Of a stretch of DNA of 64,000 nt, positions 50,317 to 57,189 are shown one piece after another. The DNA is from Caryophanales bacterium. GTDB lineage: Bacteria > Bacillota_I > Bacilli_A > RF39 > UBA660. The position numbers and the translations under genes were made by a program. Every line of letters begins with the position of its first letter. The first letter of the stretch is position 1. The notes below the pieces were generated by a model. It saw only the letters and a program-made list of their open reading frames with translations, had not been told where the DNA came from and made no database searches. Location of the stretch: NCBI GenBank assembly GCA_016290885.1, contig JAEEVN010000004.1, forward strand, positions 1 to 64,000, given 5' to 3'.

Positions 50317-50346
50317 AAAAAAGATATTCAATGAATATCTTTTTAT
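50317..50346 (-). terminator. Intrinsic terminator of the adhesin operon
   Basis: AAAGATATTCA / TGAATATCTTT stem, T run on the minus strand, overlapping the end of the anchored adhesin gene. Confidence 0.75.
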
Positions 50347-52985
50347 TTCTTTTTATTATAAACTATTAAACCTACAATTATAGTTACTACTACTAGAATA
50401 ACTCCAGCATACATAATTCTTTGTTTTCCAGTTTGAATGTTTATAATTAATTCTGCGAATGCGCTATCGTCTTCTTTAACAATCTTTTGGTCTATTAATA
50501 CTAATAATCCTGATGCATTACCATATTCATCTATATAGGCAGTTGCAGTATCTTTAGTAGATGCTTTTGTATATCCTGCTGGAGCAACTGTTTCTATGAT
50601 TCTATATGTAGTAGATGGTTCCATTTCGATAAATGTTGCAACTCCTTTTGTTAGAGTGAATTGAATCTTACCATTCTTTTCATCTGCTTTATATATATCA
50701 GCATTTGGATTATAAGTACCATCATTTTCTACTTCAACTAATTTTAAATCAACATATTTTTTAGTCTTTTTATCATATTTTTGAAGTTTATATTTACCTG
50801 TTGTTAATGCATTACCTGCAGTATCTCTTTTATAGAAGTTAAATGAATTTAATGAGTTAGAAATGAATATAGTATCTAATAAATAGTTACCATCAATTGA
50901 AACTCCCTTTTCATCAAGTCCTATAACTACTTTAGTATATACACCCTCACCTTGTGGTAAAACATATGGTGTTGGAGTATATATTTCTTTAAAGTAATAT
51001 GTACCTTCAGGTAAGTTATTAATAGTTATTTTACCATTAGAATTAGTAACATATACATAATTATCTACTGATGCTTGGTCATCTACATATGTATAAAGAC
51101 CTGGAGCATCAACTGTACATTTTAACTTCTCTGATTTATCTTCATTATAAAGTTCAAATTGAACACCTTCAAGTGGATTACCATAACCAGTTTTTTCTAT
51201 ATTTACTTTAGTTATATAGTTAATAATTCTTACATTTCCATCATTTGCAGGAACATAACTATTATTACTATTTTTAACTAATAAATCTCCGTTTACAACC
51301 TTTATATATGTTGTTCTAGCAGCTTCATCCTTTGGTATTCTGTAAGGAGGAAGAACAGCAGTTTCTACTATCTTATATTCTCCATCTTCTAATAATGAAA
51401 TTGAATATGAATATGTAGTAGGAAGATATAAACTAGTAAGACTTCCATTTTCATTATATTCAAATACATTTCCATTTCCTTTGTTAAATTTCATTACTTT
51501 ATCTTTTGAATTTCTTATTTCAAATGTTGCTCCATTAATTGGATTATTTGATTTATCTACCTTTAATATTCTAAAGTTTTTAGCAACATTTGTAACAGTT
51601 AATTCAATAGCACTATTATTATAAGATACTTTAACTAAACCACTTAAGCATGATGTTATATTACCTGCATTATCTTTTCTTGCTTCATCACAAGCAGTAA
51701 TTTTATGAGTTATAGCATCTATCTTAATATTAAAGTCTCTTATTCCAGAATATCCAGAAGGAGTTTTTGATTCTCTAACTCTGTATTCACCACTATAGTT
51801 TAAACTATATTTAGTTGTAGTATTAGAATCTATTGTTACAGAATAATTAGTATTAGTTATATGTGTTAAATTAAATTTAGCTCCATCAATTGATCTTCCA
51901 TCTGCATCAACTTTCTTTATAGAGAAATCTGTATTTTCAGAACTTACATTAAATGAAGCTTTATATATTCTCCATCCAGTACCATAAACCATATCTTGGT
52001 TATCATTTGGATTTTTCTTAAATCTAAAGTATTTGAATGATTCTGTTGTTTCACTAGAAGAAGGTCCAGATCCTCTCTTATAGCTACATGTTATTTTAGC
52101 ATTTTGTATTGTTTCATTAGAAATTAATGTAACAGTACCTGCTCTTTCATCAACAATAGGTGTTGATATCTTAGAATTATCAGATTCACAAGTTGTATAA
52201 TCTCCTATACCAGATACTACTACTTTATATTTCTTGTTTGCATTATCCCATTGCATTGTATAATGATCTTCATTAAATGCAGGTGCAGGTTTTACTTGGT
52301 CTTCTAATCTAGCTGCATTTATATAGCTTGTATAGTAATAATATAAAGTGTTTGGTGTAGTTGGACTACTTGCACCATTTGGTACAATTACTTGATTATA
52401 GAAACTATATTCACCATTCCAATCAGGTTCAATAGTATCAAATGATGTTCTTCCGCCTTCCATAACTTCCCAAACTAGAATTTGCATTGCTATTAATTTA
52501 GTTTGAGCATATTTATCCTCAGTTATTATTGTATCTAATGTCTTTCTTCTTTCAGGATCTGGATTATATCCCCAAAGAAGTAATTTCTTTAATAAATTTA
52601 TTCTTTTTGTTTTTTCTGCTTGAGATAGACTAGAATCAGAGAATTTAATTGAATCTAGTGTATTATATTGTGTTAAATCTCCGTCCCTTATCCAGTCTTT
52701 ACTCATATTTAAACAGTAAGATATATAACGAGTAGACCCATCTACTACTGTGTAGTAGTTCCAGTTACCATATATATGCTTACATGAGAATGAAGCATTA
52801 TTAGCGCATAAATCATGACCATCAGTTGCTTCATACCAGTTTGTAGTAATTAATGATTGGTTTTTAAAAGTATTTAAGCTATCAGAATGATATACTTGGA
52901 ACTTTGGAGCAGCACTTACACTTGTAATACCTACCAGGAAGAATAATACAACTACTAATAATATTTTTGATATTTTTTTCATCAT
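50343..52985 (-). CDS. Surface adhesin: predicted thioester domain plus four SpaA/Cna-B-type domains
   Basis: 880 aa. Signal peptide (about 1-27, ending VSAAPK). The N-terminal domain has the marks of a thioester domain: SYCLN with Cys91 and AMQILVWEV with Gln168, which in this family form a Cys-Gln bond able to attach covalently to host targets. From about 350 four SpaA-like domains follow, each starting with a Lys strand (SIKKVDADG, RILKVDKSN, NIEKTGYG, FYKRDTAG) and ending in an E-box (YRVRESKTPSGY, YKIVETA, YYFKEIYTPTPY, YRIIETVAPAGY), so isopeptide bonds are likely. The end is NIQTG, a hydrophobic helix and KKK: an LPxTG-like variant. The RBS lies in the upstream gene's last codons. Confidence 0.88.
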   Translation of the reverse strand: MMKKISKILLVVVLFFLVGITSVSAAPKFQVYHSDSLNTFKNQSLITTNWYEATDGHDLCANNASFSCKHIYGNWNYYTVVDGSTRYISYCLNMSKDWIRDGDLTQYNTLDSIKFSDSSLSQAEKTKRINLLKKLLLWGYNPDPERRKTLDTIITEDKYAQTKLIAMQILVWEVMEGGRTSFDTIEPDWNGEYSFYNQVIVPNGASSPTTPNTLYYYYTSYINAARLEDQVKPAPAFNEDHYTMQWDNANKKYKVVVSGIGDYTTCESDNSKISTPIVDERAGTVTLISNETIQNAKITCSYKRGSGPSSSETTESFKYFRFKKNPNDNQDMVYGTGWRIYKASFNVSSENTDFSIKKVDADGRSIDGAKFNLTHITNTNYSVTIDSNTTTKYSLNYSGEYRVRESKTPSGYSGIRDFNIKIDAITHKITACDEARKDNAGNITSCLSGLVKVSYNNSAIELTVTNVAKNFRILKVDKSNNPINGATFEIRNSKDKVMKFNKGNGNVFEYNENGSLTSLYLPTTYSYSISLLEDGEYKIVETAVLPPYRIPKDEAARTTYIKVVNGDLLVKNSNNSYVPANDGNVRIINYITKVNIEKTGYGNPLEGVQFELYNEDKSEKLKCTVDAPGLYTYVDDQASVDNYVYVTNSNGKITINNLPEGTYYFKEIYTPTPYVLPQGEGVYTKVVIGLDEKGVSIDGNYLLDTIFISNSLNSFNFYKRDTAGNALTTGKYKLQKYDKKTKKYVDLKLVEVENDGTYNPNADIYKADEKNGKIQFTLTKGVATFIEMEPSTTYRIIETVAPAGYTKASTKDTATAYIDEYGNASGLLVLIDQKIVKEDDSAFAELIINIQTGKQRIMYAGVILVVVTIIVGLIVYNKKK

Positions 52986-52986
52986 A

Positions 52987-55900
52987 TTACTCACCTCCCT
53001 CAGTATTACCAGTGCCTGTATTTAAAGCGCCAAAATCATATACTGGTAATTCTTCGCCCATTAATGTTATATCTCTTGCACTTACTATATTTCTATAAGT
53101 ACCTGCTTCTTTTAAATCTAAATCAAGTACTAATGTGAAATATTGTTTTTCATTAGGTAATAATAATTTTCCAGATAATCCATTGTAATATAATAAATTA
53201 TCATACATTGCCCAATATTGATTTTCTTTTAAACTTGGATTAAATGTCATTCCTGCTGGAGGATTATCTACAATCATTCCAATATATCCTGGGAAGTATT
53301 TTGTATTTTCCACAGTGAATGTATATTTAACTCTTACTTTAGTATCTTTTGGATTAAGTACTGATATTGATACTTGTGTAGCATTTTTATCAGAATAATC
53401 ATAAGTATCTACTTTACCATTCTTAGCAACTTGAACTTCAGTAATGTATTTATTTAATGAAATTGCCATTTCTTTCTTAATTGCAAGTCCTAAGTTAATA
53501 CCAATTTCATTTGATCTACCACTTGGGTTTTCTGATTCAAAGCTTATAATCTTAGAAATTGCTTTATTAGTATTAGGTAATTGAGATGCTTTAGAATTGT
53601 TATTTTCTGAATCAGGAATACTATCACTAGATTTGTTTATACCAGTAACTATATATTTAGTATTATCAACAGTATAACTAACATAATAGTTTCCACTTGC
53701 TAAACCACCAAAATAGTAATTTCCATTTTCTCCAGTTACTGTAGCTCCAACTAATGTATCATTTTCATTAACAAATGTAGTTGGATCTGTTATATCATAA
53801 CCTTCTGGGATATCACCAATTTTATATAATGAAACAGGTATATCTTTTAATTTAGATTCATTTTCTGTATAAATACCATTATAATCATAGTCTTCAAATA
53901 CAAATCCTGAAATTGTTCTTGCATAAATAGATGTTACTGATGATGATGAAGCATAATTTGCTTTTACATTCATTGATTCATCACAGTAATCTGGGTTTTC
54001 TGCTGGATTTTGGCAATCAGCATTATATCCATCAGGTTTTTGTGCTAGTATATGGAATTTGTTATAGAATACATTACCATCACTAGAACCAACTGTTTCT
54101 ACATTTACAGTTAATCCTTCATTAGAACCAAAGTATGTTCCATAAGTAAATGGTGTATCTTTTACTACTTTTATTGCTATAACATTTGATACTGGTGTAT
54201 TTGGGTCTTCCCATGCTTTCCAGATTGCTGATGGTTCAGCATCTACTCTCATTTCATCCGCAATTATATTTGATGGATTTCCAGTTGTAGCATAGTAGAA
54301 TTTATATGTATTTGTATCTACTGTTCCAACAAAATTTACTTTATATTTTGTTATTCCTATATTTGAACTCATATCAACAGATAAATCTCCATCATATGGT
54401 AAAACATAGTATAGAGTTGCATTTGGATAAGTATATCCTCCTGCTACTGTTGTTTCTGAGTGGTTATAAGCTAACATATTAAATGTATAGCTTCCATTCT
54501 TTTCAATATTCTTTGGTGTAGATGAAGCTTTTGTTATTACTGCTGATGAGTTATATAAAGTTATAGTATTTAATTCATTTGATCTTTCTACTAATGATGA
54601 TATTGGATAGAATATTGTTGAAATAACTCCACCTTCATCATCAGCCATATGTTTAACTGCTTTAAAATCAACTGTTGTAAATATTTCTGGTTGAACCGCA
54701 TTTGGTGTATTAATTAAATCAATATCTGCATATACTACAAAATTAGATAATATACCTTTTTGTAGATTTGATATTTCATCCTCAGTCATACCTTCAGTTT
54801 CTGCAGATAAAGCATAATGATATACTACATAGTTAGCATCAACTGCAGGTGTGCCTTTACCAAGTGCACCATATATACTAGATAAAAGTATAGTATCTGT
54901 AGTATATGGTTTTTCATTTTGGTTACCATAGTTAGATTCTATATACATATATTCAGGCATGTATATATCTACATAAATAGTATCATATCTTAAATCTGTA
55001 TCACTTCTAGAAGCATTTGCATTAATTTTTAATGCTATTGGATAATAATAGAATTGACTTTCTGGTTGAGTTAAATCTATTGATTTATGTGCGCTTATTA
55101 CTGGTTTAGTAGCTTTAATACCAGAAACTATAATTGAAGCTCCTGATGTTGCACATCTATCACTTATACATGCATTATTATTTCTTGTAACTAAATATCT
55201 ATTTGTGAAATCATATACTGATTTAACAAAGTTACTAGAATTAGTTAATAATGTTTCTCCACTATATGCTTCATTACCTAGATATCTATAATCATTACTA
55301 TTCTTACCATATGCAGTAGCACTTGTTGTAATTTGATATACATTATTAGCTAAAGTATATTCATCAACTACTGTACCATATAATTCTATAGTTCCAGAAG
55401 CTCCTGGTTCTATATACTCTGTGTTATAAGAAATATATGTTGATTTAACAACTAATGGTCCTTTTGTTGATTCGATAGGATTTCCATCAATATCATTTTC
55501 AGATACTGGTGAATATGCCCATTTAACTGTATTCTTTTCTACTATACATGGTCCACCATATAAATTCATTAATTGTTCTTTTGTTAATGAACTAACTGAT
55601 GCTGGACAATTTGATGGAGCATTAGCAGCTATTTCAAAATAGTTACTATTCCATTCACCAAATCCAAAATATACTTTTGGATGTGCTGTTCCATCATTAT
55701 CTATTTTAATTGAAGGAGTTGAAGTAATTTCTCCTGCAACAAAGTCATATCCTTTATTTGAATCTTTATCATTTATTAATTTAAATACATCATTATCTAT
55801 TTTTACATAGTTAGTTAAACTTGTTAATCCATCTCCTAAAGATGTAGATCTACTTGAATAATCAAATTTAGTTTTTAATATAAAATCTGATCCATAGTTT

Positions 55901-57189
55901 AGAACTGCTTTACCATATTCTAAAGCATCTCCCATAGTTTCAGAAGTTAAACTACTTTCATAAACATCAATATTAGAAGAATAATTTCCTAATATATAAT
56001 CATATGAATCTAATATTTGAACATTAGTTACTGTATCAGCACTATTATTTTTATTTCCAGTTAATGTAACAACTATATCTGCATAATCATGATCTCCTCT
56101 AGTTGCTAATGTAGATAAGAAATAATTTGTTGAGAAATAATAGAATTGAACTTCAGAGTTTTCTGTATATGCATTTACTAAATAATCTTTTATGTTATTA
56201 ACATTAATAGTTAAAATACCATCATTTAATGAACTAGTTATATCTCCATTATTTATTTCTGGCATTTCTCTACCATTTGTATCTATATTTATTTTATAAT
56301 CATCTGTACTAGAATAAGTTCTATAAACTCTTTCAGAATTTTCATTAAATGTTAATTTTGTATCATCTGAATTAGTTATAGTCATAGTTATAGATTTTGG
56401 AACTATTAAACCTCTAATTCCTTTATCACCATAAGTTTTTAAGCCCATTAATAACCCAACAGGTACTGTTCTATCTTTCTTAGTACCAGAATACATATTA
56501 ACAAAGTATTCTTCTCTACCAGTAATAGTTACATCACAAGCAGAAGAATCAGCTAATTCACAAGATATATCTCCTGGTAAAGTACTAACAGTTTTAATAC
56601 TTGGTGTATCTTGATCTGTTGTTTCTTTTATAAATATTAATGGTTTAATGCTATTATTAGTAGTTATATCATTTGTATTAATACTTTCTAAATAGAAATC
56701 AAATGTTGATGGATCATTTAATGCTTGAATTTGAACTTCAAAGCTTCCATAGTAATATGTATTACCATCGAATGTTAATACATTTTCAGCATCCATTCTT
56801 TCATCCATTCTTACTGTAACATTTTCACCATATTTTAGAGTCGCTTCATAAGAAGTAGGAACTAATACTTCTACTAATACTTTTCTTCCTTCAATATTAT
56901 GAGAAGTTGTTTGACCATCTTTTTCCATTAATCTATATTCAACGGAATACTTTATATTATCAAATGTTCTTACTCTCTTGTTTGAATTACTAGAGTCATT
57001 ACCTGCATCATCATTCAAATCGAATGCTCCTGCACCATCCTCTATACCAACAATTTTTTTGCTAGTAACAGTAAATTTATTATCATCCCCAGCATCTGCC
57101 AATACAAAGAAATATATTGGAACAAATACTATTGCTAGTGAAACAATAATAGTAACTAGTAATATGTGTTTTCTATAACTTTTATCCAT
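52987..57189 (-). CDS. Giant secreted surface protein with an SdrD-B-type domain, 1400 aa
   Basis: An N-terminal membrane segment or signal (about 8-32) leads to a long series of beta-sandwich, DUF11-like domains rich in Asn, Thr, Ser and Tyr. At about 1090-1185 there is an SdrD-B-type domain (SGFVFEDYDYNGIYTENESKLKDIPVSLY in outline, with D-x-N-G and GNYYFGGLASGNYYV). The C-terminal domain (about 1220-1390) is again DUF11-like. No C-terminal sorting signal: it ends GNTEGGE. It is the first gene of a two-gene operon; its stop is 1 bp before the ATG of the thioester adhesin, so translation is coupled and the two may act together at the surface. Confidence 0.85.
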   Translation of the reverse strand: MDKSYRKHILLVTIIVSLAIVFVPIYFFVLADAGDDNKFTVTSKKIVGIEDGAGAFDLNDDAGNDSSNSNKRVRTFDNIKYSVEYRLMEKDGQTTSHNIEGRKVLVEVLVPTSYEATLKYGENVTVRMDERMDAENVLTFDGNTYYYGSFEVQIQALNDPSTFDFYLESINTNDITTNNSIKPLIFIKETTDQDTPSIKTVSTLPGDISCELADSSACDVTITGREEYFVNMYSGTKKDRTVPVGLLMGLKTYGDKGIRGLIVPKSITMTITNSDDTKLTFNENSERVYRTYSSTDDYKINIDTNGREMPEINNGDITSSLNDGILTINVNNIKDYLVNAYTENSEVQFYYFSTNYFLSTLATRGDHDYADIVVTLTGNKNNSADTVTNVQILDSYDYILGNYSSNIDVYESSLTSETMGDALEYGKAVLNYGSDFILKTKFDYSSRSTSLGDGLTSLTNYVKIDNDVFKLINDKDSNKGYDFVAGEITSTPSIKIDNDGTAHPKVYFGFGEWNSNYFEIAANAPSNCPASVSSLTKEQLMNLYGGPCIVEKNTVKWAYSPVSENDIDGNPIESTKGPLVVKSTYISYNTEYIEPGASGTIELYGTVVDEYTLANNVYQITTSATAYGKNSNDYRYLGNEAYSGETLLTNSSNFVKSVYDFTNRYLVTRNNNACISDRCATSGASIIVSGIKATKPVISAHKSIDLTQPESQFYYYPIALKINANASRSDTDLRYDTIYVDIYMPEYMYIESNYGNQNEKPYTTDTILLSSIYGALGKGTPAVDANYVVYHYALSAETEGMTEDEISNLQKGILSNFVVYADIDLINTPNAVQPEIFTTVDFKAVKHMADDEGGVISTIFYPISSLVERSNELNTITLYNSSAVITKASSTPKNIEKNGSYTFNMLAYNHSETTVAGGYTYPNATLYYVLPYDGDLSVDMSSNIGITKYKVNFVGTVDTNTYKFYYATTGNPSNIIADEMRVDAEPSAIWKAWEDPNTPVSNVIAIKVVKDTPFTYGTYFGSNEGLTVNVETVGSSDGNVFYNKFHILAQKPDGYNADCQNPAENPDYCDESMNVKANYASSSSVTSIYARTISGFVFEDYDYNGIYTENESKLKDIPVSLYKIGDIPEGYDITDPTTFVNENDTLVGATVTGENGNYYFGGLASGNYYVSYTVDNTKYIVTGINKSSDSIPDSENNNSKASQLPNTNKAISKIISFESENPSGRSNEIGINLGLAIKKEMAISLNKYITEVQVAKNGKVDTYDYSDKNATQVSISVLNPKDTKVRVKYTFTVENTKYFPGYIGMIVDNPPAGMTFNPSLKENQYWAMYDNLLYYNGLSGKLLLPNEKQYFTLVLDLDLKEAGTYRNIVSARDITLMGEELPVYDFGALNTGTGNTEGGE

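Follow-up and report, generated by a model that had tools for sequence, protein, structure and literature searches.

Closest to the locus described here among known systems are surface adhesins with a thioester domain (TED), such as Cpa, SfbI and the Class II TIE proteins. In the solved TEDs, the bond is formed by a Gln of a later beta-strand that lies in a PhiQ-zeta-PhiPhi motif and not by the Gln of the TQxxPhiW motif (PMC4450167, PMC6194298). The latter, helical Gln just hydrogen-bonds the Cys backbone in Cpa, SfbI and Class II TEDs, and its mutants still form the bond (PMC4450167, PMC6194298). Class II TEDs additionally carry a beta-sandwich of about 75 residues inserted between alpha3 and the strand of the bond-forming Gln (PMC6194298).

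The window, i.e., the whole stretch of 64,000 nucleotides that was analysed, carries two adjacent genes on the minus strand. Their best explanation, which we hold to be likely though well short of certain, is that they form an operon of two genes that encodes a device for adhesion at the cell surface. B would be a wall-anchored, TIE-type adhesin with an isopeptide stalk and a Cys91-Gln330 thioester, and A would be its non-covalent partner. This reading draws on computed domain content, conserved residues, fold similarity, the sortases of the genome and the linkage of A and B.

52987..57189, minus strand: gene A, open frame for a 1400-aa secreted rod-like protein without C-terminal anchor
50343..52985, minus strand: gene B, starting with the ATG at 52985 and encoding a predicted TIE-type (thioester/isopeptide) adhesin of the cell surface, 880 aa
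50318..50344, minus strand: possible weak terminator, an A+T-rich hairpin followed by a T run that folds at -9.5 kcal/mol

Both frames lie where the initial annotation had placed them, and the Cys91 and Gln168 named there are present, with residues of B numbered in both cases from the ATG at 52985. The 3' end of A reads GGTGAGTAA and is followed by one T and then by the ATG of B, which has GGAGG 8 bases upstream; the sequence GAGGGAGGTGAGTAATATGATG at the end of A provides a good ribosome-binding site, with 1 base between the stop of A and the start of B. An alternative upstream GTG at 52994 would give a B of 883 aa and turn Cys91 and Gln168 into residues 94 and 171, but judged from the sequence the ATG is the better supported start and, since it lies 1 base after the stop of A, leaves the two frames without overlap. 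The hairpin 3' of B is too A+T-rich for a consensus scan and therefore only suggestive of a terminator, and a scan for promoter-like sites gave none above chance. Of the first five relatives from the genus, four keep the flanks of the pair, with a pseudouridine-synthase-like gene on the side of B and a UppP-like or RmuC-like gene on the side of A.

Relatives of B were collected within the genus and beyond, and ten of them were aligned at full length while 14 domains were aligned for the TED, with the following features.

51939..52847, minus strand: TED of B with apparent Class II layout, residues about 47-349, motifs YCLN / QILVW / NQDMV
52713..52715, minus strand: Cys91, predicted thioester Cys, invariant in 14/14 domains, at the end of a beta-strand in the model
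52482..52484, minus strand: Gln168, invariant, in the helical TQxxPhiW motif (model helix 132-149), not the predicted bond former
51996..51998, minus strand: Gln330, predicted thioester Gln, invariant in 14/14 domains, after the beta-sandwich and just before the long final strand

A thioester-type domain in B, as initially proposed, is borne out by these comparisons, whereas the proposed bond between Cys91 and Gln168 is not. On B itself, the Pfam TED family PF08341 stays below threshold, and nothing exceeds threshold at the N-terminus; the same family matches seven of the ten family members when E values up to 10 are admitted (best 4.4e-8), and two direct homologues exceed its cut-off in genome scans (G005:C7 with 24.2 bits and G138:C5 with 33.2 bits). 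Searched against 177,635 PDB sequences, a profile of ten family sequences has two TEDs as its top matches, 4c0z (Cpa; E 0.007) and 5a0l (SfbI; E 0.05); with seven sequences, the domain profile had retrieved no PDB TED. When the family is aligned with ten classical TEDs from the lineage, the Cys and the helix Gln fall in register (E 1.4e-5).

Across the 14 aligned domains, which come from several genera, six columns are invariant, namely Cys91, Gln168, Trp172, one Tyr, Gln330 and one Val; the apparent TED residue pattern is more than chance, with Cys91, Gln168, Trp172 and Gln330 making up four of these six. The [YFL]C-Phi-zeta motif reads YCLN in B and YCLN, YCLH, YCLQ, YCID, YCLD, YCFH or YCVE in homologues, and the helical TQxxPhiW motif is present as QILVW around Gln168, with M, K, T or A in place of the leading T across homologues. 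Gln330 stands in PhiQ-zeta-PhiPhi-like contexts (NQDMV in B; WQDIV, FQNLV, WQRIV, RQELI, TQSVL and SQNLI in homologues) in which the residue before the Gln is not always hydrophobic, and this motif is described as weak. With Gln168 in the helical motif and Gln330 where the bond-forming Gln belongs, we reassign the bond partner, and the predicted thioester is Cys91-Gln330, at a spacing of 239 residues, rather than Cys91-Gln168. The invariance of Gln168 and the position of its equivalent next to the thioester in solved TEDs could be taken to favour a pairing with Cys91, which we nevertheless regard as highly improbable because the helical Gln is dispensable for the bond in characterised TEDs (PMC4450167, PMC6194298) and a separate invariant residue, Gln330, occupies the position of the bond-forming Gln. 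Given that Gln168 would not be the bond former and that Gln330 is predicted in its place, a wide separation of Cys91 and Gln168 is no valid ground for rejecting the thioester domain, as had been proposed.

An AlphaFold2 model of the domain built from 14 sequences is of medium confidence (pLDDT 76.7, pTM 0.73), and its top three Foldseek matches in the PDB are all chains of 4c0z, the TED of Cpa (best E 1.3e-3, probability 1.00, TM 0.51 by target). An earlier AlphaFold model from seven sequences had no fold match, and it was the set of 14 sequences reaching other genera that gave the Cpa TED. The model starts with the strands of a barrel, in which Cys91 closes strand 59-65 (model numbering), and continues with three helix regions, the second of which contains Gln168, a beta-sandwich, Gln330 and a long last strand. 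In the same numbering, a helix at 188-204 precedes the strands at 215-296, Gln304 (corresponding to Gln330) and the strand at 306-322. As modelled, the beta-sandwich preceding Gln330 appears to be laid out as in Class II TEDs, and the order of elements is compatible with a slipknot topology; no Class II structure is among the matches listed. We also considered whether the part that follows the helices is an Ig-like domain of its own and dropped this idea because the published structures and the invariant Gln330 put this part inside one Class II domain.

The rarity of TEDs in this lineage that the initial annotation implied proved to be overstated. Of 145 family genomes, 103 have a PF08341 match above the cut-off, the genome of the window encodes four TED proteins besides B that Pfam recognises, and a class-wide sample gave matches with E 0.001 or better in 28 of 38 family members versus 20 of 258 other genomes. 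A TED in B is thus no surprise, since TEDs are routine in this small-genome family. Named relatives come from sheep rumen, sheep duodenum and water-buffalo reticulum, and our literature search found no report linking thioester-domain adhesins with the rumen. The locus would extend covalent, thioester-based adhesion to an uncultured gut lineage of the class Bacilli that has small genomes and commonly encodes TED proteins.

The remainder of B comprises a signal peptide, a stalk and a sorting tail.

52905..52985, minus strand: predicted signal peptide of B, residues 1-27, with basic start, hydrophobic core and VSA-A
51570..51926, minus strand: SpaA domain 1 with Lys358, Glu405 and Asn466; Lys and Glu in 10/10, Asn/Asp in 10/10
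51204..51569, minus strand: SpaA domain 2 with Lys475, Glu541 and Asn589; shortened in G122 (L129), the most distant member
50844..51203, minus strand: SpaA domain 3 with Lys598, Glu667 and Asn710; best Pfam stretch
50472..50843, minus strand: SpaA domain 4 with Lys719, Glu798 and Asp832; Asn at the last position in most homologues
50346..50453, minus strand: cell-wall sorting signal of NIQTG (50427-50441), membrane helix and KKK; conserved tail

The four SpaA-like domains with E-boxes that had been noted in B are indeed recognised by Pfam PF17802 in four stretches (E 1.4e-31), and the triad of Lys, E-box Glu and Asn or Asp is complete in each of them and conserved in the alignment of ten full-length proteins. 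B has the layout of a sortase substrate, i.e., a signal peptide, a pentapeptide, a membrane helix and a basic tail, with I-x-T-G and not LPxTG as its motif. The same alignment corroborates the NIQTG-helix-KKK end, with an invariant I-x-T-G followed by helix and basic tail in all ten homologues (consensus AEL(I/V)(I/V)-x-I-x-T-G) and a variable preceding residue (N, E or T). Three other proteins of the same genome end in this module of IQTG, helix and basic end.

No sortase is encoded in the A-B cluster, as had been remarked, but this holds for the neighbourhood and not for the genome as a whole, which encodes five sortases besides three further IQTG-anchored proteins, a list that was compiled through similarity and pattern searches and may be incomplete. 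An absence of both sortases and other xQTG proteins from the genome had been named as evidence against the proposal, and both were found. The sortases on contigs C9 and C31 adjoin TED/SpaA genes on contigs with conjugative-element-like genes, the one on C37 adjoins a TED gene, and those on C45 and C14 stand alone. The C14 sortase belongs to class B (155.7 versus a curated cut-off of 153.75), and its PDB matches are class B structures. Long sortases, as judged by length and score, occur in ten of the eleven genus genomes with IQTG proteins, with G009 as the eleventh, and G011 has neither a long sortase nor IQTG proteins. G009, with IQTG proteins and no class B sortase, was considered as a counter-example and set aside as uninformative because the phosphoglucomutase-like gene that flanks the C14 sortase in the genome of the window is likewise missing from its assembly. 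G178, a genome of another lineage, encodes an NIQTG protein but no long or class B sortase in an assembly that may be incomplete, and every genome has a sortase of some 205 residues, which is close in length to the one on C45.

Because the long sortase co-occurs with IQTG proteins across the genus, a pattern that is suggestive, the class B sortase would be the leading candidate for the anchoring of B, without the matter being settled. We considered NIQTG as a class B signal of the Staphylococcus aureus type and held this back since the first residue varies and since SrtB of Clostridioides difficile left NVQTG, a similar pentapeptide, uncleaved in vitro (PMC4155245). By sequence, the genome has recognisable genes for wall synthesis (Ddl-like, MurF-like and PBP-like), and a survey of related Bacilli orders described two novel small-genome orders without srtA/B, among which RF39 is not listed (PMC10868615).

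Several further surface proteins of this genome were seen along the way. The largest sortase-type protein among those seen is a 4819-aa open frame with an SIQTG tail (C45:137982-138098, L039), and a TED protein with 344 aa in the fetched frame ends in NPKTG and a membrane helix (C16:14077-14343, L126), making it a possible substrate of the class B sortase. On C37, the gene of a 472-aa TED protein overlaps a small, 165-aa sortase gene (L042:6820-8704), and sortases of similar size recur across the genus. Contigs C9 (L041:8199-11547) and C31 (L040:1337-4658) encode two near-identical proteins of 910-918 aa that combine a TED with SpaA domains and have VPITDA tails; each has its own sortase and sits among conjugative-element-like genes, and in type they are similar to the conjugation adhesin of pLS20 (PMC8092201).

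Gene A encodes a secreted rod with the following features.

57097..57189, minus strand: predicted signal peptide of A, with predicted cleavage after Val-Leu-Ala at residue 31
53587..53913, minus strand: SdrD_B domain, residues 1093-1201 (PF17210, E 1.7e-10, over cut-off)
53050..53472, minus strand: conserved C-terminal beta-domain, residues about 1240-1380, with the densest invariant columns in nine A proteins

The description of A as a 1400-aa protein with an SdrD-B domain and no anchor was upheld, in that the SdrD_B domain is also present in homologues and no C-terminal anchor or sorting signal was found in the sequence of A or in the nine A proteins compared. Residues Val29 and Ala31 at positions -3 and -1 are invariant in these nine proteins although the adjoining sequence varies, which argues, without proof, for cleavage of the signal peptide. 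The A homologue of G138 (L128:8740-14415) is longer, with 1891 aa including an additional Cys-rich extension at the C-terminus, and in this genome A and B are separated by a gene of 136 aa.

Among 386 family genomes, strong matches to A (E 1e-183 or lower) and matches to B occur in the same seven, side by side in all seven of them with one small gene in between in G138, and A lies beside B in five further genomes too, with a B-A-B duplication in G005. In total, 12 genomes from three or more genera encode a homologous A protein, always beside B, in support of the initial view that the two belong together. A conserved V-x-A cleavage site and the lack of an anchor in nine A proteins would also suit a rod that is released to the medium and acts apart from the cell, with B as an ordinary wall-anchored TIE adhesin and the linkage reflecting co-regulation. 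We consider this unlikely because the strict adjacency in several genera and the B-A-B arrangement suggest physical partnership over co-regulation.

More distant A proteins of 1490-1600 aa are encoded elsewhere. On C45 of the window's own genome, at about 21.8-40.2 kb (L037, L188), a 1518-aa A paralogue heads a cluster with two giant SpaA proteins of about 1800 and 2370 aa that have NIQTG ends, with small membrane-anchored proteins (185 and 216 aa) in between, and comparable sets occur in G001 and G006. A search of the N-terminal 400 residues of the giant IQTG proteins gave no TED motif. A paralogues thus head clusters of giant IQTG proteins, and the pairing of unanchored A rods with SpaA partners anchored through I-x-T-G is, by sequence comparison, a repeated theme of which the window holds the version with a predicted thioester tip.

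A has no anchor but always travels with B, so that something must hold it if it stays on the cell. Conceivably, the thioester of B reacts with A, be it from the same or from a neighbouring cell, and ties the unanchored rod to the wall with no host target involved. This seems rather improbable to us because A paralogues adjoin giants without a TED motif in their first 400 residues, so A needs no TED to be kept, and because TEDs with known targets bind outside molecules, as SfbI does with fibrinogen (PMC4450167). A pilus of the Cpa/FctA type, in which a pilin sortase would polymerise A into the shaft and B would be the tip, would be in line with TED proteins that can be pilus tips (Cpa; PMC7900414) and with the sets of TED, SpaA and sortase found elsewhere in the genome. 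The A-B cluster contains no sortase gene, and A has no sorting signal, which makes a pilus very hard to credit. To our knowledge, every sortase-polymerised shaft subunit needs such a signal. A more general proposal, which we put forward only tentatively, is a previously undescribed, two-part surface fibre in which a rod of the A family is obligatorily paired with an I-x-T-G-anchored SpaA protein, either with a thioester tip as in the window or with giant TED-less partners as on C45, and in which the two parts may be joined by a thioester or another cross-link.

Under our preferred reading of B as a wall-anchored TIE-type adhesin with A as non-covalent partner, the tail of secreted B would be cut at I-x-T-G by a chromosomal sortase and joined to peptidoglycan, a Lys-Asn/Asp isopeptide bond would lock each of the four SpaA domains, which together would form a stiff stalk, and the Class II domain at the far end would hold the internal Cys91-Gln330 thioester. 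A nucleophile on the target surface, probably a Lys amine, could then attack the thioester to give an intermolecular covalent link through Gln330. A would be produced in step with B and secreted as a rod without an anchor; its likeliest role is that of a non-covalent partner dedicated to extending or shielding the fibre. Bond formation, the acting sortase, the target and the physical contact of A and B are what we infer here. Overall, the initial observation is confirmed and its chemistry corrected, with less surprise in the TED and somewhat more in the fixed secreted-rod partner. The adhesin belongs to a known kind as a divergent representative, and the partner is the unusual and less familiar part. 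This conserved partner is absent from the known TIE adhesins compared and raises the question of what holds the rod and whether the thioester is involved.

Among described proteins, CbpA of C. difficile ends in an NVQTG tail near-identical to the NIQTG pentapeptide of B, but it is described as collagen-binding, and its NVQTG peptide is not cut by the SrtB of its own species in vitro (PMC4155245). The pilus-tip adhesin Cpa of Streptococcus pyogenes (4c0z) is both the best structural match of the B model and the best PDB profile match, yet its TED is of Class I and its pilus is built by a sortase, whereas the A-B cluster has neither a pilus sortase nor a shaft pilin with a sorting signal. The TIE protein of conjugative plasmid pLS20 shares with B a Class II TED and an Ig-like stalk in a member of the Bacilli, but it lacks a sortase signal and serves conjugation, while the A-B operon is chromosomal (PMC8092201); its closer counterparts in the genome of the window are the two TED proteins on the element-like contigs C9 and C31. 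Like B, the Class II TIE proteins BaTIE of Bacillus anthracis, SaTIE and EfmTIE86 combine a signal peptide, an N-terminal TED in which a beta-sandwich precedes the Gln of the bond, a CnaB/SpaA stalk and a sortase tail (PMC6194298). The distance from Cys to Gln is 239 residues in B versus 171 in SaTIE and 204 in EfmTIE86 (PMC6194298), and B further differs from these proteins by its low similarity (below the Pfam TED threshold), by an I-x-T-G motif in place of LPxTG, and by the fixed gene of a secreted partner at its side.
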